DNA from: Fimbriimonas ginsengisoli Gsoil 348 | Lineage (GTDB): Bacteria > Armatimonadota > Fimbriimonadia > Fimbriimonadales > Fimbriimonadaceae | Reading direction: 5' to 3' | Length of the DNA: 64,000 nt | Assembly: GCA_945881865.1 (NCBI GenBank) | Contig: CAMCVK010000001.1 | Span: 434,001 to 498,000, forward strand | Part shown: piece by piece, positions 860-46,412 of the stretch | How the letters are laid out: each line of letters starts with the position of its first letter | How positions within the stretch are numbered: position 1 is the first letter of the stretch | Program-made: the position numbers and the translations under genes | The notes under the pieces: model-generated | Seen by the model: the letters and a program-made list of their open reading frames with translations, nothing else | What the model was told of the DNA's origin: nothing | The model's database searches: none

Positions 860-3800
860 ATGCTTCTGGTGCCAATCTTGGTTCTGGCCATTCCGCCTAC
901 CGATCCTGCCTTCGACGCCGGGCCGAACCCGCAGTTGATGCAGCACCCGACGGTGAACGCAACGACCGTGGTCTTCAGCTTTGCGGGCGACCTCTGGTCG
1001 GTGCCGCGAGCCGGCGGAGACGCGGTACGCCTCACCACCTCGATTGGCAGAGAAACCAACCCGACGTTCTCGCCCGACGGCAAAACGATTTCGTTCACCG
1101 GCGAATATGACGGCAACACGGACGCCTACGTGATTCCCGCCGGAGGCGGCGTTCCGGTTCGCCTAACCGCCCACCCCGGCGCAGACCTTGCCCTTGGCTG
1201 GACCCCAGACGGAAAGAGCGTCCTCATCCAGTCGCCGATGCTCTCGAACACGGCCTACACCCGATTGTTCACCGTGCCGATGACCGGCGGCGTGCCGACC
1301 GCGCTTCCCTTCCCCGCCGGCGACGAAGCCGCGTTTTCGCCCGACGGCAAGCGCATCGCCTACACGGCCAACGGAAAGTGGCAACAGTCTTGGAAGCGGT
1401 ACCGCGGCGGCCAAACCAATACGATTTGGCTGGCGCAGCTCTCCGATTCTCGCCGTGTCGGCGTTTCGCGCGAGGGTACGGATGACAAGAACCCGATGTG
1501 GATCGGCGACAGCATTTACTACCTCTCCGATCCCAACGGCGTGATGGGCCTCAACCGCTTCGACATCAAGTCGGGCAAGGTGACCGAGGAGATCAAGGGC
1601 GAGGGCTTCGACCTGAAGTCGGCCACCGCCGGACCGGGCGTCATCGCCTACGAGCGGCTCGGCTATATCCACTTGTACGACCTAGCAACGCGAAAATCTT
1701 CCCGTTTAGATGTCTCCATTAAGGGCGATTTCCAGGCGGTTCGACCGGCGATCAAGGACGTCAGCGGAGCCATCAACGGAGTCGGCATCTCGCCTTCCGG
1801 TTCGCGCCTGGTCGTTTCGGCCCGCGGCTGGGTCTTCACGCTTCCGGCGGCAAAAGGCGACGCCCGATTGCTGAGCGGCAAGCAAGGCGTGAACCGCCGC
1901 GATCCGGCGTGGTCGCCGGATGGCAAGACGATCGCGTACATGACCGACGAAGACGGTACGCAGAAGCTGGCCCTGTTCGACGTGGCCACCTCGACCGAAA
2001 AGCGAGTCGGACTGGCCGAGAGCCCGGGCTATTACACCGCTCCGAAGTGGTCGCCCAACGGCAAGAAGATCGCCTACCAGAGTGAGAAGCTCGCCCTCTA
2101 TGTGCTGGACGTGGAGTCCGGAAAGAGCACGAAGATCGACAAGCAAACCTACCGGGGCCGCGCAAGCGTTGACCCTTCTTGGTCGCAGGATTCGAAATGG
2201 CTCACCTGGAGCCGCGACCTAGACAACCGGCTGAACGCCGTTTTCCTATACAGCTTCGAGTCCGCGAAGGTCACGCAAATCACCGACGGCCTCTCGGACG
2301 CGGCCAGTCCGGTCTTCGACGTGGACGGCAAGCACCTCTACTTCACGGCAAGCACCGATACCGGCACGGCCAGCAACTTTGAGAACATGAGCGGCTTTGC
2401 CGCGCCGAACACGACGAGCACGGTGTACGCCGTGGTACTGCGTAAAGACCTTCCGAACCCGCTTCAGCCGGAGTCGGACGAGGAAGTTCCGAAACCGGAA
2501 GCACCGAAGCCGGACGCACCAAAGCCGGAGGCGGCAAAGCCTGGCTTTAACATCGATCTCGACGGCATCGAAAAGCGCATCATCGCGCTTCCGTTGCCGC
2601 GCCAAGGTTATGCGGGACTTGCCGCAGGCACCGCCGGCTCATTCTTTGCTTTATCGACGTCGCCGCGCATCACGGCGGTTGACGGCGGCGGACCGGGAAC
2701 GCTCTACAAGTTCTCCTTTGCCGACCGCAAGGTCATCCCGTTTGCGGGCGGAGTTCGCGGCTTCCAAACGACGCTCGACGGCTCCAAGATCTTGTTCTCG
2801 CAGGGTCCGGGCTTCCAGCTGGTATCCACCGTCGCTCCGCCCGCCCCGGGCCAGGGAGCCGTCAACACTTCCGGGCTTCGGGTGAAAATCGAGCCGCAAG
2901 CCGAATGGAAAGCGATCTACCACGAGGTTTGGCGCAACCAGCGGATGCTATTTTACGACGCAAACATGCACGGCGTCGACACGTTCTTGCTTGAGCGACG
3001 GTACGAGCCGTTCTTGGCCAACATTCGTTCTCGCGCAGATTTGAACTACCTGTTCGAGGACATGCTGGGCGAGCTTTGCGTGGGTCACATGTTCATCAAT
3101 GGCGGCGACATGCCGAGCGCACCCCGCATTGGCGGCGGACTTTTAGGCGCCGACTACTCATTCGAGAACGGTCGATACCGTCTCAGCCGAATCTACGACG
3201 GCGAGCGATGGAACCCGGAGCTTTACGCACCGCTTGCGCAGCCCGGCATCAACGCTCAAGTTGGCGAGTACCTACTGGCGGTTGACGGCCAGGAGCTAAC
3301 CGACGCCAAGGACATCTACCTTCAGCTGGAGGGCAAAGCCGGTCGGCAGGTCAAGGTTAAGCTTGGCCCGAACCCGGATGGCACGGGAAGCCGAGAGGCG
3401 ACCGTGGTGCCGGTCGGCAGCGAGTTCAATCTGCGCTTCCGTGCGTGGAGCGAGGACAACCGCCGGACGGTGGATCGCCTCACAAACGGGCGCGTGGCCT
3501 ACGTGCACGTACCGGACACCTCGACCGGCGGCTGGCGCGAATTCCAGCGGTACTTCTACTCGCAGACTCCGAAGCAGGGTCTGGTGGTGGACGATCGCTT
3601 CAACCAAGGTGGTTCGATCAACGACTTCATGGTCCACGAGATGTCGAAGAGGCAGGACTTCCTCGACATCGCGCGCTACGGAAAGGTTCTTCGCGATCCG
3701 GCGACCGGAATCTACGGTCCGAAGGTGATGCTTATTAATGAGATGGCCGGCTCCGGCGGCGACATCTTCCCCTACCTATTCCGCCTCCACAAGGTCGGCA

Positions 3801-4159
3801 AGATCGTTGGCAAAACGACCTGGGGCGCGATGATCTCGGCCTACGGGTTCAGCGTCATCGACGGCGGTTCGGTCCGCGCACCGGACGATGCTATGGTGGA
3901 CATTCAGACCGGCGACTGGATCATCGAAAACGAAGGCACGCCGCCGGACATCAGCGTGGAACTTGAGCCGTATCTGTGGCGACAAGGCCGCGACTCGCAG
4001 CTAGAAGCCGCGATTGAAGTCGTGAAGAAGGAACTGGAAACGTACAAGCCGACGAGCGACGCGCGGCCGCCGTACCCAGACCGCAGCAAGCTGCCGATGA
4101 GGAAAAACAAAAAGGCGAACGAGAAGCAGCCGGAATTCTGGAAGAAGATCGGCGGGTAG
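860..4159 (+). CDS. Tricorn protease homologue (beta-propellers, PDZ, S41 serine protease core)
   Basis: A 1099-residue secreted or periplasmic tricorn-type protease that trims peptides. A short signal-like N-terminus is followed by TolB/WD40-like propeller repeats (about 40-540, with repeated SPDGK signatures), a Pro/Lys/Glu-rich linker (about 545-565), a C1 core, a PDZ domain (about 790-850) and a C2 S41 core. The nucleophile is Ser965 in AGSGGD, and Glu1023 or Glu1025 lies in the ENEG segment. The family's Ser-His pair is Gly742-His743 here, so the helper Ser is lost. Its length is near that of archaeal tricorn (about 1070). A TANNNT box sits 6 nt upstream of the start. Gene 4200 follows 40 nt downstream on the same strand and also looks secreted. 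Confidence 0.9.
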   Translation: MLLVPILVLAIPPTDPAFDAGPNPQLMQHPTVNATTVVFSFAGDLWSVPRAGGDAVRLTTSIGRETNPTFSPDGKTISFTGEYDGNTDAYVIPAGGGVPVRLTAHPGADLALGWTPDGKSVLIQSPMLSNTAYTRLFTVPMTGGVPTALPFPAGDEAAFSPDGKRIAYTANGKWQQSWKRYRGGQTNTIWLAQLSDSRRVGVSREGTDDKNPMWIGDSIYYLSDPNGVMGLNRFDIKSGKVTEEIKGEGFDLKSATAGPGVIAYERLGYIHLYDLATRKSSRLDVSIKGDFQAVRPAIKDVSGAINGVGISPSGSRLVVSARGWVFTLPAAKGDARLLSGKQGVNRRDPAWSPDGKTIAYMTDEDGTQKLALFDVATSTEKRVGLAESPGYYTAPKWSPNGKKIAYQSEKLALYVLDVESGKSTKIDKQTYRGRASVDPSWSQDSKWLTWSRDLDNRLNAVFLYSFESAKVTQITDGLSDAASPVFDVDGKHLYFTASTDTGTASNFENMSGFAAPNTTSTVYAVVLRKDLPNPLQPESDEEVPKPEAPKPDAPKPEAAKPGFNIDLDGIEKRIIALPLPRQGYAGLAAGTAGSFFALSTSPRITAVDGGGPGTLYKFSFADRKVIPFAGGVRGFQTTLDGSKILFSQGPGFQLVSTVAPPAPGQGAVNTSGLRVKIEPQAEWKAIYHEVWRNQRMLFYDANMHGVDTFLLERRYEPFLANIRSRADLNYLFEDMLGELCVGHMFINGGDMPSAPRIGGGLLGADYSFENGRYRLSRIYDGERWNPELYAPLAQPGINAQVGEYLLAVDGQELTDAKDIYLQLEGKAGRQVKVKLGPNPDGTGSREATVVPVGSEFNLRFRAWSEDNRRTVDRLTNGRVAYVHVPDTSTGGWREFQRYFYSQTPKQGLVVDDRFNQGGSINDFMVHEMSKRQDFLDIARYGKVLRDPATGIYGPKVMLINEMAGSGGDIFPYLFRLHKVGKIVGKTTWGAMISAYGFSVIDGGSVRAPDDAMVDIQTGDWIIENEGTPPDISVELEPYLWRQGRDSQLEAAIEVVKKELETYKPTSDARPPYPDRSKLPMRKNKKANEKQPEFWKKIGG

Positions 4160-5172: not shown

Positions 5173-5511
5173 TCAGTGAAGCAACACGCCGTTCGGAACC
5201 GGACGTTCCGGCTCAACCAAAACGACCGCGCCGCCTTCGTCCGTGAGTCCCAGCACCAGGCACTCGCTGATGAACGGCCCGATCTGGCGCGGCGGAAGGT
5301 TCGTCGCCGCCAGCACCTGCCGACCGACCAACGTATCCGGCGTGTAATGCACCGTGATCTGCGCGCTGGACCGCAGCGTCCGGTCTCCAAAATCGATCGT
5401 CAGGCGATAAGCTGGCTTTCTCGCCTGCGGAAACTCTTCCGCCTCGATGACGGTGCCGACCCGAATCTCGATGTTCTGAAAGTCTTCAATCGAAGCAAAT
5501 CTTTCAAGCAT
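5173..5511 (-). CDS. csaA: tRNA-binding-domain protein, CsaA-like
   Basis: A stand-alone OB-fold tRNA-binding domain of the CsaA/Trbp111 type, thought to act as an RNA-binding or export-related chaperone. Diagnostic strings are IEIRVGTVIEAEEFPQARKP at the N-terminus and a VLAATNLPPRQIG segment near the end, both typical of the family. I chose the Met at 5511, giving 112 residues, because CsaA normally begins just before the EDF-x-IEIRVG strand and this start overlaps the upstream response-regulator stop by 8 bp. The in-frame Met at 5535 is an alternative. It is translationally coupled to the response regulator gene. Confidence 0.85.
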   Translation of the reverse strand: MLERFASIEDFQNIEIRVGTVIEAEEFPQARKPAYRLTIDFGDRTLRSSAQITVHYTPDTLVGRQVLAATNLPPRQIGPFISECLVLGLTDEGGAVVLVEPERPVPNGVLLH

Positions 5512-5935
5512 CCTTGGAGCGTTCCCAAAGGTCAACCGTGCGGAGGTCGCGTCGCTTTCGCTCCAGCGCGAGGCCGACCTTCTCGGTCAGCACTTCGTAG
5601 GCATCGATTCCCGGCGCGTTCTTCTCGATGTAGTCGAAGGCTCCCCGGCGCATGCACTCCACCGCGTTCGCCACGTTACCGTAGGCGGTCATCACGACGA
5701 CTTCGGCAAAAAGGTCCCGGGTAAACGCCGCGTGTAGAACCTGAAGGCCGCTTTCCGGCGCGTCCATGCTCATGTCGGTGACGATCGCGTCGAACGGAAC
5801 CGGCACGTCCAGGATCTTCTGAATGCCCTCGGCCGCGTTGTTCGCCGTCGAAACGACGTAGCCATTTCGCTCCATTCGCCGCTTCACCGCCGCCAAAACC
5901 GATTCTTCATCGTCGATGACCAACACGCTCGCCAT
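5504..5935 (-). CDS. Single-domain response regulator
   Basis: A 143-residue receiver domain without an output domain. It has the acidic pair Asp8-Asp9, the phospho-acceptor Asp54 in IVTDMSM, a Thr in VVMTAYG and a Lys in YIEKN, so it should be phosphorylatable. The C-terminal tail (about 120-143) is helical and charged and has no recognisable DNA-binding fold. No partner kinase is adjacent; the nearest kinase in the window is at 16369. It is divergent from the MFS-HEAT gene, with 38 nt between the two start codons. Confidence 0.9.
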   Translation of the reverse strand: MASVLVIDDEESVLAAVKRRMERNGYVVSTANNAAEGIQKILDVPVPFDAIVTDMSMDAPESGLQVLHAAFTRDLFAEVVVMTAYGNVANAVECMRRGAFDYIEKNAPGIDAYEVLTEKVGLALERKRRDLRTVDLWERSKDA

Positions 5936-5967: not shown

Positions 5968-5973
5968 AAGGTG

Positions 5974-8280
5974 ATGCGAGCGGGCGAGCCAAGTCGAATT
6001 GACAATCTTCGCACGCTTCGCAACGCAAACCTGGACATGGCGTTTTCGACGTCGTTCCTCACCCTGACGACCGGAGCGTTCCTGGTGGGATTCGTTCAGC
6101 TGTTGGGTGGCAGCGACGCCTGGATCGGCATGCTCTCTGCGATCCCTAGCCTGGTCGGCTTGCTCCAGATTCCGGGTGCCATTTGGGGCCGCCGGTTCTC
6201 TTCCTATAAGAAGTTCGTCACTCCGGGCGGTGCGCTGTGGCGGTTGCTCATGGTGCCGATCATGTTTCTGCCGATTTTGGCCCTGCCGAACGAATTTCGG
6301 CTGATCACTTTGGCCGTATTGGTGACGGTCGCGTCGGCCGCGGTCACGATCGTGAACCCCATCTATAGCGACTGGCTGGCCGAGATGATCCCGGCAAATT
6401 CGAGGGGCTGGTTCTTCTCGCGGCGGAACGCGATTGGTGCGTCCGTCGGCGCGGTGGCCGGAATCATCGGCGCGACCATCTTGGATGCCTTCCGCAGCTA
6501 CAAGATGGACGCGATCGGCTTCACCGTCGTGTTCGGAATCGGCATGGTTTTTGCCGGTTTCAGCATGTTCTACTACCTGAAGATGACGGACATCCCCCGG
6601 GTGGCGCCGGTTCGGCAGAACCTGTTGCAGGGGATTCGGTCGATTGGAGCGCCGTTCAGCGACCGAAAGTTTCGCGGTGTTTTGATTCTCCTCACGCTGG
6701 CGATCACCGGCCAAACCCTCCCAGGCAACCTGTTCGCCGCGTTCGCCCGCGAAACGCTAGAACTGAACTTTAAGATCATCCAGGGCACGGCGGTCTTCAT
6801 GGCCATCGGCAACGTGCTGGCCGCGCCGTTTTGGGGCTACTTTTCGGACAAATTTGGCAACAAGCCGGTCCTGACGCTGTCGCTCCTGATGCTCTCGTTG
6901 AATCCGATCCCTTGGATTCTCTGCCAGCCGAATCAGGACACGTTCAACGCCGTGCTCCTGCTCTCGACGCACGTCATCATGGGCATCACGTGGGCGGCGG
7001 TGGCGCTCACGCAGTTCAATTTAGTGCTTGCGACCGCTAAACCGGAGGACCGGGCGAACTACTTGGCGGCGGGAATGACGGTGATGGCGGTAGTTGGCGG
7101 CGTGGCTCCGCTAGTCGGCGCGGGAATGATGGCCGAACTGCGCCACCACTTCCCGGTGGAAACCGCCTACAAAATTGTCTTCGGTGCGGCAGGGATTATC
7201 CGAATCATCAGCGCGCTTTCGGTCTTGCCGATTCAGGAACCCGGCGCGCAGGGCTTCAGGGCGACCATTCGGGAACTCCGAAACGTGACGCCGGGCCGGT
7301 TGCGCACCATTCGCCGGATGGCGGGCGGGGCCAGCGCCGAGCACCGGGAGGAGGCCATTCAAAACGCGGCCGATCAAGGCATGACGATCGCCAGCGATGA
7401 GATTCTCGCGGCGCTACACGACCCATTGCCGCGCGTTCGACGGCGGGCGGCGGTGGCCGCCGCCAAGCTCACCGACCCGAGGGCGGTCGCCGAGCTGATC
7501 CACCAAATCGAGGCGCACCCGGACCTCGTCGAGGAAGAGATGATCGAATCGCTGGGATTGCTGGGCGACCCCAGCGCGGTCACCGTCCTCACCCAGTTGC
7601 TGGAAAGCCCGCGGTCCAGCCTGCGACGGGCAGCGGCGAAAGCCCTTGGGCGGATCGAGCACCACGATCCCGCCGCGCGGGCGGCTTTGTGCCGGGTGGC
7701 CACCGCACCGACCGACCCGGATCTTCGGCGCGCCGCGCTTCAGGCCCTCCGGCTAGATGGCGACGCCGCCGGCTTCCCCGCGTTTTATGCCGGACTGATG
7801 GACGAGCATCCGAGCGTCCGAATTGCTGCCGCCGAAGGAGTCGCCGAACTTGCGATTCCCGCCGCCGATGTGTGCCGTAAATCGCTGACAACCTACCAAG
7901 ACGAAGCCTGCGCCGAGGTGGCCTACGCTTTGGCGGCCGTCGGAAGTCGCGAAGATGTGCCCCTGATCCTGGATGAAGCGGCACGTTCGACGTCGACGAT
8001 CACGCGCAAACGGTGCCTTCTCGGCGTCGCGCGCCTGTTCGATGTGGAGCGTGCGGTTTACCGACTGCTCTCGTTGGAAGGAATGGCCCGCGACCAGGCT
8101 TTGGTCGCTATGCTCCCCGCAACTCCCGCCGGCAAGGCCGCGTTGCGAGAGTTTTCGCGCGGCGATGAAGCCGCCGCAGTTAGGATTTTGGCGCGGACCG
8201 AACCGGAACTGACTTCGCTGGCAGCCCCCCTCGTGCCCGAGCGATTCGTCGTCGCGGCCGCCGTAATTGCCGGCCGATAG
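5974..8280 (+). CDS. MFS transporter fused to C-terminal HEAT repeats
   Basis: A 768-residue fusion. Residues 1 to about 430 form a 12-helix major-facilitator transporter; typical loops include SRRNAIGAS after helix 4 and WGYFSDKFGNKP between the halves. Residues about 445-768 are soluble alpha-helical HEAT-like repeats, with recurrent blocks such as DPLPRVRRRAAVAAA, SSLRRAAAKALG and HPSVRIAAAEGVAEL at roughly 30-residue spacing. The repeats should lie in the cytoplasm and could bind a partner or sense a ligand. The substrate is unknown. ATG 5974 is preferred to GTG 5971 because it lies 6 nt after a TAAACT box. Confidence 0.85.
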   Translation: MRAGEPSRIDNLRTLRNANLDMAFSTSFLTLTTGAFLVGFVQLLGGSDAWIGMLSAIPSLVGLLQIPGAIWGRRFSSYKKFVTPGGALWRLLMVPIMFLPILALPNEFRLITLAVLVTVASAAVTIVNPIYSDWLAEMIPANSRGWFFSRRNAIGASVGAVAGIIGATILDAFRSYKMDAIGFTVVFGIGMVFAGFSMFYYLKMTDIPRVAPVRQNLLQGIRSIGAPFSDRKFRGVLILLTLAITGQTLPGNLFAAFARETLELNFKIIQGTAVFMAIGNVLAAPFWGYFSDKFGNKPVLTLSLLMLSLNPIPWILCQPNQDTFNAVLLLSTHVIMGITWAAVALTQFNLVLATAKPEDRANYLAAGMTVMAVVGGVAPLVGAGMMAELRHHFPVETAYKIVFGAAGIIRIISALSVLPIQEPGAQGFRATIRELRNVTPGRLRTIRRMAGGASAEHREEAIQNAADQGMTIASDEILAALHDPLPRVRRRAAVAAAKLTDPRAVAELIHQIEAHPDLVEEEMIESLGLLGDPSAVTVLTQLLESPRSSLRRAAAKALGRIEHHDPAARAALCRVATAPTDPDLRRAALQALRLDGDAAGFPAFYAGLMDEHPSVRIAAAEGVAELAIPAADVCRKSLTTYQDEACAEVAYALAAVGSREDVPLILDEAARSTSTITRKRCLLGVARLFDVERAVYRLLSLEGMARDQALVAMLPATPAGKAALREFSRGDEAAAVRILARTEPELTSLAAPLVPERFVVAAAVIAGR

Positions 8281-8316: not shown

Positions 8317-8403
8317 GGTGCTTTTTTGTTTTAGAATAGCTGGGTGCGGTTGTTTTGGCCCATCTCGGAGAGGATTTCGGGCCGCAATCGCGAGGAGAGT
8401 TGG

Positions 8404-10725
8404 ATGAACCAGACGAAGATTATTGCTTTGCTTTTTGCCCTCTCGGCTTCTGCCGCGGGAGTGACCCAAACCGCGACCGCGTGGTCGAACCCCGCCACGT
8501 GGGGCGGCCAAGTGCCGCGCATTGGCGACAAGGTCTTCATTCCGAAAGGAAAGAACGTCGTGCTCGACGTGGCGACGGCGGGCCTGCGAGGACTTACCAT
8601 CGAGGGGACCCTCTCGACTTCGCCGAACAAGAACGTTGCGATCACTTCCGACTTCATCGTCGTGAAGGGCGGCAAGTTACAGATCGGCACGGCCGCCGCG
8701 CCGCACCTGGGGCGAGCCACAATCACCCTGACTGGAAACACCACCTGGAACCTGCCGGAGACCTTTGCAATGGGCTCCAAGGTCCTCGGCGTTGTTGGCG
8801 GTTCGCTCGAAATTTTCGGCGCGCCCGTCAAAAAGAACTGGACGAAGCTTGCCGCCGACGTGAAGCCAGGCGCAACCGCGATCAAGCTGGCCGAAGCCCC
8901 GGGCTGGCGCGTAGGCGACCAAATCGTTCTCGCGACGTCGACCCGAAAAATGGGCGAGTACGACCTGGCGACAATTTCCGCCATCAATGGAGTCGACGTC
9001 ACGCTCAAGGCACCGCTTAAGTACAAGCATCTTGGCGCCGCGCGAAGTGTCGCCGGCCAGCGGTTGGATGTCCGTGCTGAGGTCGGACTCCTTTCGCACA
9101 ACGTCGTGATCCAGGGCGATACGCAGTCCACTTCGCTCAAGATCGGTGGCCACGCGATGTTTATGCGCGGCGGCAACATGATGTCTGGCCCGGCACCGAC
9201 CATCCAGATCTCGCATGCCGAGTTCCGCCGCATGGGCCAGCTCAACGTCGTCGGCCGATACCCGATCCACTTCCACCTGCTTGGCAAAACGAAGGATTGC
9301 TTCGTTAAGAATACGAGCGTGCGCGATACCATCCAGCGCGGAATTGTTTTGCACGACGTGGAAAATGTGAGCCTTACCGGGAACGTGGTGTTCAATACGA
9401 TAGGCCACAACATCGTCGTGGAGACTCCCGAAACGAGGTCAAACGTGCTCGATGGCAACCTTGCACTCGTGAACCGTCCGGCGACCCCGCTGCAAACGGA
9501 GTCTGTCTTCGTGGAGCAGGCCGACCGACTGCCCTCGAACTTCTGGCTGCGTTCCGCCAATAACCTGGTTACGAACAATCATTCGGCCGGGAGCTTCGAT
9601 AGCGGATTCAACTTCGATCGCTTGATCGACGATGCTCCCTTTCGTTTCAGCAAGAACACCGCCCACGCGTCGATGGGCCTGGAAAGTGCCGGAGCCGGTG
9701 ACTTTGACCTCGCCGCCGGCATGCTGTTCGTGACCGAGGCCAACCGGCCAAGCAACGACGACATTTCAGACAACCTTGTCTATCACAACTCCATCGGAAT
9801 GTGGCCCGAGGAAGCCGGTCCGTTCATCATCAACCGCATGCTCGCGGTGGACAACGACCTGCACACCGAGAACCGCGGCGTCGGAAACGCGGTTACCTAC
9901 CGAAACAGCCTGTTTGTTGGCAAACTGACGGAACCCCGCGAGTATGCCGGGGCGGCCGCGCACTTCCAATACGGATCCGACGTCAAGCTCGAGAGCCCGA
10001 CTTTTGCGGGTTACGCCAACTCCGGCTTTGCGTCCTTCACCGACATCGCTCTTCCGACGCAAGGGAACCTATGGGTTTCCAATCCAAAGTTTGTCGGTCC
10101 GAAGCCGTGGCCGTCGATCGGCGACGACCAAGTCACGACCTATCTCGACGACGCCTTCCTGCCGCGCGGAACCTACGTCTATGCACCGGAATACGCGCTC
10201 CCGGGTGCGAGCCGAGTCTTTATCGGCGCCGGGGACGAAGGGACCGATATCTTCCGAATGGCGGCGCGACCGGACTACGCCGAGGTGGACGTCCGCAATA
10301 TGGCGTCGCCTGGAACGCCCATTCACCAGACCCAACCAATCCGCCGCCAGGACGGCCTTACCTACGCTTCCGGCATGTTTGGCTACACAGCGATTTTGGG
10401 TGCGGACATTCGCTACGAAGTGCCGGTGGTGGCACCGAAGGGCTACGCGCTACGAATCAACAATAACTCGACGTTTGCGGCACCGGGCGAACAGGCTGCG
10501 GCACGAGTTGAAGTCGCGGTCAAGGTTGCGGGACTCCCTAGAGGCGTCTATCGCACGGACGACAACTACGAACTCCCGGGCAAGCCAACCACGGCCGGAA
10601 AGCTGCGCGCGGCCACCAGCCGCGCGGATTTCCTCGCGAACCCAGAGACGACGTTCCTCTGGGATGCGGCCAAGAAGACGGTCACGACATTCGCCGCCCG
10701 GCGCTGGGTCGTCATCGTTCCGTAA
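8404..10725 (+). CDS. Secreted G8-domain, right-handed beta-helix protein
   Basis: A 773-residue exported protein. After a signal peptide (about 1-20, ending near SASA) comes a G8 domain (about 24-140: WSNPATWGGQVPRIGD, then VVLDVATAGLRGLTIEGTL). A long region of parallel beta-helix repeats follows (about 150-560), with HLLGKTKDCFVKNTSVRDT and GIVLHDVENVSLTGNVVFNT-like coils. In animals this architecture occurs in CEMIP/TMEM2 hyaluronan-degrading proteins; bacterial members are poorly characterised. A GAGGAGA Shine-Dalgarno lies 7 nt before ATG 8404. A polysaccharide substrate is an inference only. Confidence 0.8.
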   Translation: MNQTKIIALLFALSASAAGVTQTATAWSNPATWGGQVPRIGDKVFIPKGKNVVLDVATAGLRGLTIEGTLSTSPNKNVAITSDFIVVKGGKLQIGTAAAPHLGRATITLTGNTTWNLPETFAMGSKVLGVVGGSLEIFGAPVKKNWTKLAADVKPGATAIKLAEAPGWRVGDQIVLATSTRKMGEYDLATISAINGVDVTLKAPLKYKHLGAARSVAGQRLDVRAEVGLLSHNVVIQGDTQSTSLKIGGHAMFMRGGNMMSGPAPTIQISHAEFRRMGQLNVVGRYPIHFHLLGKTKDCFVKNTSVRDTIQRGIVLHDVENVSLTGNVVFNTIGHNIVVETPETRSNVLDGNLALVNRPATPLQTESVFVEQADRLPSNFWLRSANNLVTNNHSAGSFDSGFNFDRLIDDAPFRFSKNTAHASMGLESAGAGDFDLAAGMLFVTEANRPSNDDISDNLVYHNSIGMWPEEAGPFIINRMLAVDNDLHTENRGVGNAVTYRNSLFVGKLTEPREYAGAAAHFQYGSDVKLESPTFAGYANSGFASFTDIALPTQGNLWVSNPKFVGPKPWPSIGDDQVTTYLDDAFLPRGTYVYAPEYALPGASRVFIGAGDEGTDIFRMAARPDYAEVDVRNMASPGTPIHQTQPIRRQDGLTYASGMFGYTAILGADIRYEVPVVAPKGYALRINNNSTFAAPGEQAAARVEVAVKVAGLPRGVYRTDDNYELPGKPTTAGKLRAATSRADFLANPETTFLWDAAKKTVTTFAARRWVVIVP

Positions 10726-10786: not shown

Positions 10787-11137
10787 GGGGGCGAACGGGT
10801 TCGACAGGATCAGTTCGACTTTTGGTTGCGAGCCGTGGATTCTCGTTGGCCACGTAAAAAACGAGAAAGAAAGTAGCTGCGAATAACAACTACGCCTTCG
10901 CCGTTTAATCGGCGGGTCCCCTAGCTCCAAGCCGGTCGGAGTTAACCGGGGCCTAACCAAATCCGGATAGCGAAGGAAAGTTCTGCTCGGACTAACCAAG
11001 CGAAATAAATCGGGCTGGACGATGACCCAGGCGGCCTCGGCAGAGGGTCACGTCGAGATAAAGTACAGAGGAGACGCTCGTGGTAACTGAGGGGCCGATG
11101 GTTTTGGAAGGGGGTTCAATTCCCCCCGCCTCCACCA
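10787..11137 (+). ncRNA. ssrA: tmRNA (ssrA), one-piece
   Basis: The 351-nt RNA rescues stalled ribosomes. The 5' end GGGGGCGAACGGGTTCGACAGG and the 3' end with T-arm GGGGGTTCAATTCCCCC and encoded CCA are diagnostic. The 5' GGGGGCG pairs with CGCCTCC before ACCA, with one G-U pair. The resume codon is GCG at 10879, preceded by the conserved UAG at -5 to -3. The reading frame encodes ANNNYAFAV and ends with TAA at 10906-10908. The mature tag would be A-ANNNYAFAV. Most tags end in LAA or VAA, so an AFAV end is unusual. Confidence 0.96.
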
Positions 11138-11244: not shown

Positions 11245-13017
11245 ATGCCGGCAGAAGTTTCCCAAGAGCTATCCATAGACGGGGCGACCGCCTTACTTTC
11301 CCATCTTCGAAAGAATCCGGCGCATCTTCGTTCTGCCCCGGAGGACCTTGCCCGGCAGTTTGGGCTTTCCACGGCATTCGTTCAGAACGTTATCACCGAG
11401 GCGCAGCGCCCGCGCCGGGAAGTCGCGCCGGTGCTCACGCAACGGCTCTCGTTTGAGTTTTTGGGAAAGATCTGGAACTTCTTTCGGGACCAAATCAAGC
11501 GAACCTTCGCCAAGCCGATGCCGTTTTTCGGCTGGAGCACCGCATTCCTCGTTGGCTTTTTTGTTCTCGTGCACTTCGGGGTGTCGAAGGCGCAGGTTAC
11601 TCCGGGCGGTCCGGGCTGGAACGACGTAGCCAATTTTGGTAGCGTGACTTTATGGTTGCTTGCCCAGGGCGCCTGCTACTTCAGCAACGGAAAAGTCCGC
11701 TTCCCGTTGCAGGGCGGTCTCATCCTTTGGGTCCTGCTTACCGGAGCTACGAGCGGTTCGATCGCCCTGCAGTCGCAGGGCAAGGGCGAGGCCGGGCTTG
11801 CCGAGGCGGTTTGGATTTCGACCCTGGCGATGTTCTTCCTGTCGGCGTTCTATGTCCTGGTTTTCAGCATGGTCGCGCTCCTTGGCGGCTGGTTCAAAGC
11901 ACGTAATTTGGAGCTGCGCGACGATGAGATGACCCGCCAGGAACTGCTGGAGCGTTACTTCGAGCTTCAGCAACGGCTTGAAAAGGGAAACACCCGCGCG
12001 CGGGTCGTCACCTGGCTGGAAGCCTCTCCGACGGCGTTGCTGTTTCGCAGATATCCGCTTCCCGTAACCGTCGCCTTTTTTGCTACCACCACGCTGACCG
12101 CCGACTTCATCGTTAGTCTGGGCAATAACCCAACCACTGGCCCGCTAACTCTTTCGATGTTCGTCGCCATCGTCATCCAAATTGCGCTGTTTCTGGTGCG
12201 GTTCGCGGCGGTCATCCTCATCGGCCTTCTCAGCCCAGCCATCGGCTCCGCAATCTGGATGGGTCTGGCGAGCGGCCTAACGATGTATGCCGTGAAGTGG
12301 CTTCCGTGGTTCGACCATGGTCCCCGGTATGCCACCGCGATTCCGACGCTAGTGATCTACGGGTTTCTGTGCCTGGTGCTCGGCATCATCAGCGGATTTG
12401 CCGGCGTGGGGGCAGACCTGCAAAAACGAGTCGTTCGAGAGCAGAGCTTGGCCGATAATGACCCTGCCACCGTGCTCGCCGAGATGCTGCGAATTCAGTG
12501 GAAGCTTTCCGACGAGACGAAGGACATTTGCGTGCTCGTGGTCGATGCCGCCAAGAGCTCCCAGATGAAGGCCGAGGCCGACCCTCTCGCCGTGGAATAC
12601 AGCTTCCGGGAATATCAGCTTTGGCTGGAACAGATTTCGGGACAGTTCCAGGGCAAGGTTCACTCCACCGCCGGAGACGGCGCGGTGGTTGCGTTCCCAG
12701 ACTGCCACCTTGGGCTCGCCGCCGCCCGCCGAATTCAAACCGACCTGGATCATTTCAACCGGAACGTGAACCGCTTGCCTAGCCCGTTTCGGCTGAGGAT
12801 TGGTTTGCACATCGGCCAAGTGGTTGGCGACCTGGACGACGTGGAGTTCACGGAAGTCATCGACATTGCCGCCCACGTCCAAGGTGCGGCGACCATCGGC
12901 GGCATCGCCGTGACCGGCGCGGTGGTGAAGGATCTCCCGGTTGAAGAGTTCCTCCCGTTGGCAAAAGAAATCGACGGGCAATCTGTCTCCCTGGTGCTCA
13001 ATCCGCGTGAGGATTGA
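11245..13017 (+). CDS. Membrane protein with degenerate class III nucleotidyl cyclase domain
   Basis: A 590-residue protein. Residues 1-55 are cytoplasmic and HTH-like (ARQFGLSTAFVQNVI). Several hydrophobic helices (about 90-400) follow, then a C-terminal class III adenylate/guanylate cyclase domain (about 425-590). Both metal-binding Asp residues are present (Asp434 in LVVDAAKSS and Asp478 in AGDGAVVAF). The transition-state Asn-x3-Arg of VNLAAR-type motifs is Asp540-x3-His544, so activity may be lost or altered. lipB starts inside its 3' end (11-bp overlap). Upstream lies only the tmRNA gene. Confidence 0.85.
   Translation: MPAEVSQELSIDGATALLSHLRKNPAHLRSAPEDLARQFGLSTAFVQNVITEAQRPRREVAPVLTQRLSFEFLGKIWNFFRDQIKRTFAKPMPFFGWSTAFLVGFFVLVHFGVSKAQVTPGGPGWNDVANFGSVTLWLLAQGACYFSNGKVRFPLQGGLILWVLLTGATSGSIALQSQGKGEAGLAEAVWISTLAMFFLSAFYVLVFSMVALLGGWFKARNLELRDDEMTRQELLERYFELQQRLEKGNTRARVVTWLEASPTALLFRRYPLPVTVAFFATTTLTADFIVSLGNNPTTGPLTLSMFVAIVIQIALFLVRFAAVILIGLLSPAIGSAIWMGLASGLTMYAVKWLPWFDHGPRYATAIPTLVIYGFLCLVLGIISGFAGVGADLQKRVVREQSLADNDPATVLAEMLRIQWKLSDETKDICVLVVDAAKSSQMKAEADPLAVEYSFREYQLWLEQISGQFQGKVHSTAGDGAVVAFPDCHLGLAAARRIQTDLDHFNRNVNRLPSPFRLRIGLHIGQVVGDLDDVEFTEVIDIAAHVQGAATIGGIAVTGAVVKDLPVEEFLPLAKEIDGQSVSLVLNPRED

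Positions 13018-44906: not shown

Positions 44907-46412
<1,506 letters not shown>

Follow-up and report, generated by a model that had tools for sequence, protein, structure and literature searches.

Here we describe a gene that encodes a transporter of the MFS_1 type continued at its C terminus by a solenoid of HEAT repeats, found in a stretch of 64,000 nucleotides from Fimbriimonas ginsengisoli Gsoil 348 (hereafter the window). A preliminary description of the same DNA had placed HEAT repeats on a transporter outside the standard MFS families. This statement has to be softened, since fusions of a carrier with HEAT repeats are already published for the NTT proteins (Major et al. 2017, PMC5381601), and the MFS_1 form, spanning both halves in 50 of 61 genomes (the window's own and 60 relatives), prevails in the relatives sampled and is not peculiar to a single genome. 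The best explanation of this architecture, in which we place moderate confidence, is an MFS_1 secondary transporter bearing a cytoplasmic HEAT arm that would serve for docking or regulation.

One open frame for transporter and solenoid

The gene runs on the forward strand from an ATG at 5974, immediately preceded by an in-frame GTG at 5971, to a stop codon at 8278..8280, and its uninterrupted frame encodes a protein of 768 residues (P0001). The transporter half occupies residues 1-424 (5974..7245), as judged from the PF07690 match, hydropathy, the positive-inside charge pattern and the match to an MFS fold. A joint at residues 425-439 (7246..7290), modelled as a helix at 425-436 with pLDDT below 50 at 422-439, leads from TM12 to the solenoid at residues 440-768 (7291..8277), where about 10-11 helix pairs are recognised from HEAT_2, HEAT, the AlphaFold2 model and the fold match. 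The host genome (3,228,457 bases in 26 contigs) carries the gene in a single copy; a second copy or close paralog was looked for there and rejected, the other matches being weak and covering one half.

The preliminary description spoke of an MFS transporter with about 320 residues of HEAT repeats, the transporter half being complete and the repeats following without a stop. Both points are borne out by Pfam, by the modelled helices at 440-766 in a solenoid of about 329 residues, and by an open frame that includes 12 predicted TM segments and matches a whole MFS structure. That two separate genes were falsely merged near 7300, by a sequencing error that shifts the frame or by an assembly join, was named there as what would undo the fusion. 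This is refuted: a single match crosses the joint in one frame in the 50 genomes mentioned above, and 78 Armatimonadota and 23 Verrucomicrobiota proteins align across it. We found nothing in favor of such an artefact and assign it a virtually negligible probability. The GC content climbs to about 70% at 7250-7749, around the joint and the early solenoid, which fits an Ala/Arg-rich repeat; since the fusion spans the joint in relatives, this rise is no sign of a join.

MFS_1 (PF07690) matches residues 25-379 over its curated cut-off (E 1.5e-26, 93.6 bits vs. 33.4), and the same family is matched at E<=1e-3 in all 62 aligned members. Twelve hydrophobic segments are seen in this half, TM3 and TM4 being merged in the hydropathy profile, and hydropathy, charge pattern and the fold match predict 12 TM helices in two six-helix halves with an N-in/C-in topology. 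The AlphaFold2 model of the MFS half is of low confidence (ten-residue blocks at pLDDT 38-70, from an input alignment of 5 rows); over residues 11-425 it matches the whole transporter SotB (6kki; Z 35.9, rmsd 2.7, 362 residues aligned). The transporter half has this fold in common with SotB and NorA, drug/H+ antiporters of the MFS_1 type, which, in contrast to the fusion protein, have no solenoid.

As a side observation, the second MFS half of the family matches the first half of NorA, weakly (E 5.3e-10), and the first half of Tet proteins. It contains a loop motif, GYxxDKxGNKP, at residues 288-298 that is well kept across the family, and in the family alignment the loop of the first half, at about 67-86, has no kept equivalent of this motif.

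Substrate clues were sought in sequence and structure databases. The window protein approached the cut-off of no NCBIfam model, and the other members gave weak NCBIfam matches (best E 5.6e-14), so that no substrate can be transferred to the fusion; a sequence search of the PDB returned partial matches only. Judging from its family membership, the protein would be a secondary transporter that moves a solute. PucC and LhaA are assembly or chaperone factors, and an MFS half of their kind, with the solenoid holding client proteins, has in its favor that PUCC (PF03209) is matched by 12 of the 62 members (threshold E<=1e-3, best 1.5e-7) and HEAT_PBS by 59 of them. We consider such a role highly improbable, as the window protein has no PUCC match at E<=0.1, MFS_1 scores far better, and no pigment or light-harvesting genes occur among the scanned neighbors.

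The C-terminal half exceeds the cut-offs of both HEAT_2 (PF13646; best stretch 508-593, E 1.4e-25, 89.8 bits vs. 27.7) and HEAT (PF02985; 601-627, E 7.5e-12, 44.8 bits vs. 23.5). The full-length AlphaFold2 model consists of helices throughout, with ten-residue blocks of the solenoid at pLDDT 63-94, mostly above 79, and the solenoid folded alone reaches a mean pLDDT of 88.7 and a pTM of 0.80. Its model resembles the artificial alphaRep HEAT-like structure 4zv6_A (Z 24.3, rmsd 2.8, 273 residues aligned); a comparison with viral structures gave no match at E<=0.001. Sequence and fold are common to this solenoid and to the repeats of CpcE/PBS-lyase and alphaRep, but those are soluble or artificial proteins, whereas here the solenoid is the tail of a transporter. 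No description of an MFS_1-HEAT protein was found in the open-access literature searched, and architectures of this kind may stand in the lists of Pfam or InterPro.

Distribution and ancestry of the fusion

The search for the same fusion in related genomes, recommended in the preliminary description, was successful. At E<=1e-10 the fusion is matched in 55 of the 61 genomes, and the 50 spanning genomes include one with an in-frame TAG (G055) and two with two spanning copies each (G039 and G051). Five genomes give partial matches: in G009 and G048 the gene lies in pieces on two contigs each, in G056 a fragment ends at the contig end, in G044 a frameshift interrupts the MFS half, and G028 is considered below. 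Among the 61 genomes, no match was obtained at this threshold in G023, G032, G036, G050, G054 and G060. In the main alignment (A1), which omits L125, L126 and L129 and takes in L070, L077 and L120 as located by tblastn, all 62 members match both MFS_1 and HEAT_2.

The fusion behaves like a core gene beside two control proteins of the same genome, each a single pick among weak matches of the family profile in the window's genome. At E<=1e-60 the fusion is found in 53 of 61 genomes and another MFS protein in 4 of 61, and another HEAT protein is found in 8 of 41 genomes at 1e-20.

Across the phylum, 254 of 291 Armatimonadota genomes match at 1e-6, a count that includes matches to one half, and spanning matches occur, among the matches listed, in families f1-f5, f10-f14, f25 and others. 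In a sample ascribed to Verrucomicrobiota, 95 of 240 genomes match at 1e-20, some with fused and some with MFS-only proteins; 40 chosen regions comprise 23 fused, 13 MFS-only and 4 without a call, a split that gives no rate because the regions were hand-picked from the listed matches by frame length. Among 299 genomes ascribed to Pseudomonadota, 17 give a total of 19 matches at E<=1e-20, all of them short of covering both halves. A peptide-pattern scan of genome contigs returned five loci, three of them close, and the four plasmid records that matched covered at most 60% of the query.

In the tree of the MFS half, 75 fused Armatimonadota proteins form one clade with support 0.97, and three others have no firm position. 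The trees were built with FastTree and their deep nodes are weakly supported; the deeper order of the fused and MFS-only groups is compatible both with a single fusion followed by losses and with several fusions. At one point the direction of change is legible: the MFS-only protein of G028 branches within the clade of fused proteins (support 0.987), a clear loss of the HEAT arm in this genome.

Six of the MFS-only loci of Verrucomicrobiota have a closely following gene of note. In L162-L166 these genes form one cluster with mechanosensitive-channel-like parts (by Pfam in L162, L164 and L166), and in L167 a TrkA_C protein lies closely downstream.

Joint length and residue conservation in the solenoid

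The distance from residue 410 in TM12 to residue 483 in the first strong repeat is nearly fixed. Among 78 Armatimonadota proteins it is 73 residues in 54 and 74 in 20, so that 74 of the 78 have one of these two values, and its full range is 72-76. Two comparison stretches of 118-121 residues show 12 lengths (171-292) and 10 lengths (292-410), although the comparison is uneven, the longer stretches having more room for length change. The distance is more variable in the 23 Verrucomicrobiota proteins (71-80), and residue 410 is not kept there.

In Armatimonadota the two halves have evolved at similar rates and with largely congruent trees. The mean identity among 130 proteins is 36.8% in the MFS half vs. 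35.0% in the HEAT half, and the pairwise distances of the halves have a correlation of 0.86. The HEAT tree reproduces 56 of the 76 MFS splits that have strong support, and 20 of the 5320 strong pairs conflict. A transporter that most of the sampled genomes of a little-studied order have retained, usually in one copy, and whose soluble arm evolves no faster than the transporter itself, points to a basic function that is as yet unnamed. Direct coupling analysis of 149 proteins (effective number 127) gave no trustworthy cross-half contact, the top pairs lying on a few hub columns; cross-half pairs make up 169 of the top 400 (42%) vs. a 48% share of all pairs.

Helix B forms the inner face of HEAT solenoids and is generally the better conserved half of HEAT-type repeats. 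In the fusion family, with helices taken from the model and six distant proteins (L117-L122) left out, the exposed positions of helix B are more conserved than those of helix A, the variability being 2.13 vs. 2.69 bits among 72 proteins (p 5e-4) and 1.37 vs. 2.29 bits among 39 near relatives (p 4e-5). Compared with exposed helix-A positions, helix-B positions outside the repeat consensus give 1.66 vs. 2.85 bits in the wider set and 0.80 vs. 2.46 bits in the near one. Part of the helix-B conservation may be structural. Residues R490, R552, R586, R680, Q590 and E621, kept in 97-100% of the 39 near relatives, drop to 57-68% in the set of 72; in the near set, the kept residues suggest that the inner face of the solenoid bears a basic strip. 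Eight residues are invariant in the main alignment of 62 members, namely W134, D171, R410, L481, D483, R489, A492 and Y696, the last of which is present in all 78 Armatimonadota proteins. D483 and R489 presumably fit the usual HEAT consensus, and Y696 presumably does not.

A solenoid of this kind might be a purely structural or oligomerisation element, holding a dimer together or stabilising the fold, with no regulatory partner. That its repeats match consensus-like HEAT solenoids, that its conserved polar residues are limited to clades, that the neighboring genes differ between clades (see below) and that the arm was lost in G028 all agree with such a role; conservation of the near-set helix-B face outside the repeat consensus and the constancy of Y696 argue against it. 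We regard it as a serious though doubtful alternative.

For the docking or regulatory arm that we prefer, the following mechanism can be proposed. The C-terminal solenoid would lie on the cytoplasmic side, held to TM12 by the joint, and the near-fixed length of the latter makes it probably a rigid arm below the cytoplasmic mouth of the transporter. Both the joint and the conservation of one face lead us to infer that the arm may dock a partner, a protein or a ligand, through helix B, and this binding would either control transport or report the transport state. The preliminary description had suggested a cytoplasmic docking or gating module; its placement in the cytoplasm is supported by the 12 segments and the positive-inside pattern, and docking or gating is consistent with the joint, the rates and the conserved face. 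Against our preferred reading speak the clade-limited conservation of the polar residues, the more variable joint of the Verrucomicrobiota proteins, and the fact that an arm can be lost, as in G028 and as suggested by the 13 MFS-only proteins among the 36 identified in the Verrucomicrobiota regions.

Neighboring genes and nucleotide messengers

In the window's family (f1), strong orthologs of a receptor-type cyclase (E<1e-150) are present in 26 of 85 genomes. In 19 of these, belonging to 8 genera, the cyclase is the next gene after the fusion and has the same orientation, the match ends ranging from an 8-base overlap to 138 bases apart. Two further genomes, G148 and G132 (the latter with a partial fusion match), have it within 1.4 kb on the same strand; in G022 and G145 it is on the opposite strand at a distance of up to 2.5 kb, in G029 110 kb away and in G147 on another contig, and it is present in G023, which has no clear fusion. 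Six weaker matches are not beside the fusion, two being far off on the same contig and four on other contigs. At a threshold of 1e-40, 54 of the 85 family genomes have no cyclase match, and no ortholog is found in the 20 genomes of the window's own genus. The three copies scanned all contain a class III cyclase domain and dCache (over the cut-off in two), and two of them HAMP; the aspartates, the lysine and the adenine-site motif, which we take to be the catalytic motifs, are kept in all eight fetched copies. In loci L065, L066, L067, L077 and L078 the cyclase is the sole clustered neighbor common among them; L067 and L078 share other clustered neighbors with L080 or L081.

A second gene arrangement was found in families f3 and f5, where cdaA, ybbR, a GNAT gene and the fusion form a run on one strand (L085, L086, L088 and L089). 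Pfam supports DAC in L086 and L088, YbbR in L085 and L086 and GNAT in L085 and L086, the rest being assigned by clustering. In G044, a clustered cdaA/ybbR open frame (L126) and, on the same contig, a GNAT-like frame (L033) precede the frame-shifted fusion. Nearly all genomes (269 of 291) encode CdaA; in the window's genome its gene is on another contig (C4), away from the fusion.

The cyclase neighbors suggest that in some lineages the transporter is tied to nucleotide signals. The likely partner pathway of the arm in the two lineages would be that of nucleotide second messengers, produced by the receptor adenylate cyclase in one and by the diadenylate cyclase CdaA in the other. This tie is drawn from gene order in two lineages and fails in the window's own genus. 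Neither link is general, as this genus is without the cyclase and the cdaA of the window's genome is on another contig.

A single-domain receiver (Response_reg; PF00072, E 2.8e-17) is encoded divergently from the fusion in the window, on the reverse strand at 5504..5935, and among 80 fetched Armatimonadota loci there are 7 with this gene at position -1 on the opposite strand. Together with the cyclase immediately downstream in 19 of 26 genomes and the cdaA run, this adjacency favors a transceptor, in which the MFS half would bind a solute and the solenoid would signal to the cyclase or the receiver, with little or no transport. However, the cyclase has an outer sensor of its own in dCache, more than half of the family genomes are without a cyclase match, and the well-kept GYxxDKxGNKP loop fits a working transport cycle; we consider a transceptor decidedly unlikely.

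The closest published parallel to an MFS_1 transporter with a docking or regulatory arm is given by the NTT proteins. According to Major et al. 2017 (PMC5381601), NTT carriers fused C-terminally to HEAT repeats (PF13646, PF02985) are widespread in bacteria and of unknown function, in part of them a cyclic-nucleotide-binding domain either comes next or belongs to the fusion, and a link to cyclic nucleotides was proposed from this cNBD gene or domain. As far as described there, they resemble the window protein in having HEAT repeats at the C terminus of a carrier, but the carrier belongs to the NTT family and not to MFS_1, and the messenger link is a binding domain, whereas in the MFS_1-HEAT case it is a cyclase gene in some lineages only. 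An NTT identity of the window protein was rejected, no NTT (TLC) being found among the 9 families matched by P0001 (E<=0.1) or the 15 matched by the 62 members (E<=1e-3); cNBD is likewise absent from both sets. Since the carrier family differs, the likeness to NTT-HEAT is at most one of analogy.

One further reading takes MFS-HEAT and NTT-HEAT as independent cases of one module, in which the HEAT arm would couple a carrier to nucleotide messengers, cAMP from the receptor cyclase and c-di-AMP from CdaA, its basic face binding either the messenger or the cyclase, and the signal would thereby set transport, or transport the signal. We think this unlikely. If the arm did link transport to cAMP or c-di-AMP, it would provide a testable answer to the role of HEAT repeats on a carrier, the question that the NTT-HEAT proteins have raised.

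A phylum-wide gene partner was sought and none was seen in the fetched loci, where neighbors are conserved within clades only. The cluster counts use 78 of 81 loci (the 80 fetched and the window), and 24 of the 56 close same-strand neighbors belong to no cluster. The cyclase is downstream on the same strand in 7 of the 80 loci (six detected by script, L077 by coordinates). Upstream genes include a lipoprotein-like gene in 5 loci of 4 genomes, L091 and L094 being two copies from one genome, GNAT in 4, DAHP synthase in 3 and an FtsW/RodA-like gene in 3. On the opposite strand, besides the receiver, a phospholipase B-like gene is found at -1 or -2 in 5 loci and a DNA polymerase III subunit at +1 in 3. 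In L091, L093, L094, L124 and L127 the lipoprotein-like gene overlaps the fusion's start by between a few and about 30 bases; a Pfam scan of four of these copies, L094 excepted, gave nothing at 1e-3.

Other features of the window were identified in passing. The gene that immediately follows the fusion, at 8344-10725 on the forward strand, encodes a protein with G8 and CEMIP beta-helix domains by Pfam, and next but one after the fusion comes a tmRNA gene (10787-11137, forward strand) with a full-length Rfam match of 157.8 bits. A protein with hydrophobic stretches and a cyclase-like C terminus (weak PF00211 match below the cut-off, E 0.0019) is encoded at 11245-13017 on the forward strand. A complete 16S rRNA gene was found with Rfam on the reverse strand at 44908-46412; no 23S or 5S rRNA match at the gathering score occurs within the 64 kb window, so that the rRNA genes may be unlinked. 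Finally, upstream of the fusion, the forward strand encodes at 860-4159 a Tricorn-like protease with PD40, PDZ and S41 peptidase domains by Pfam.
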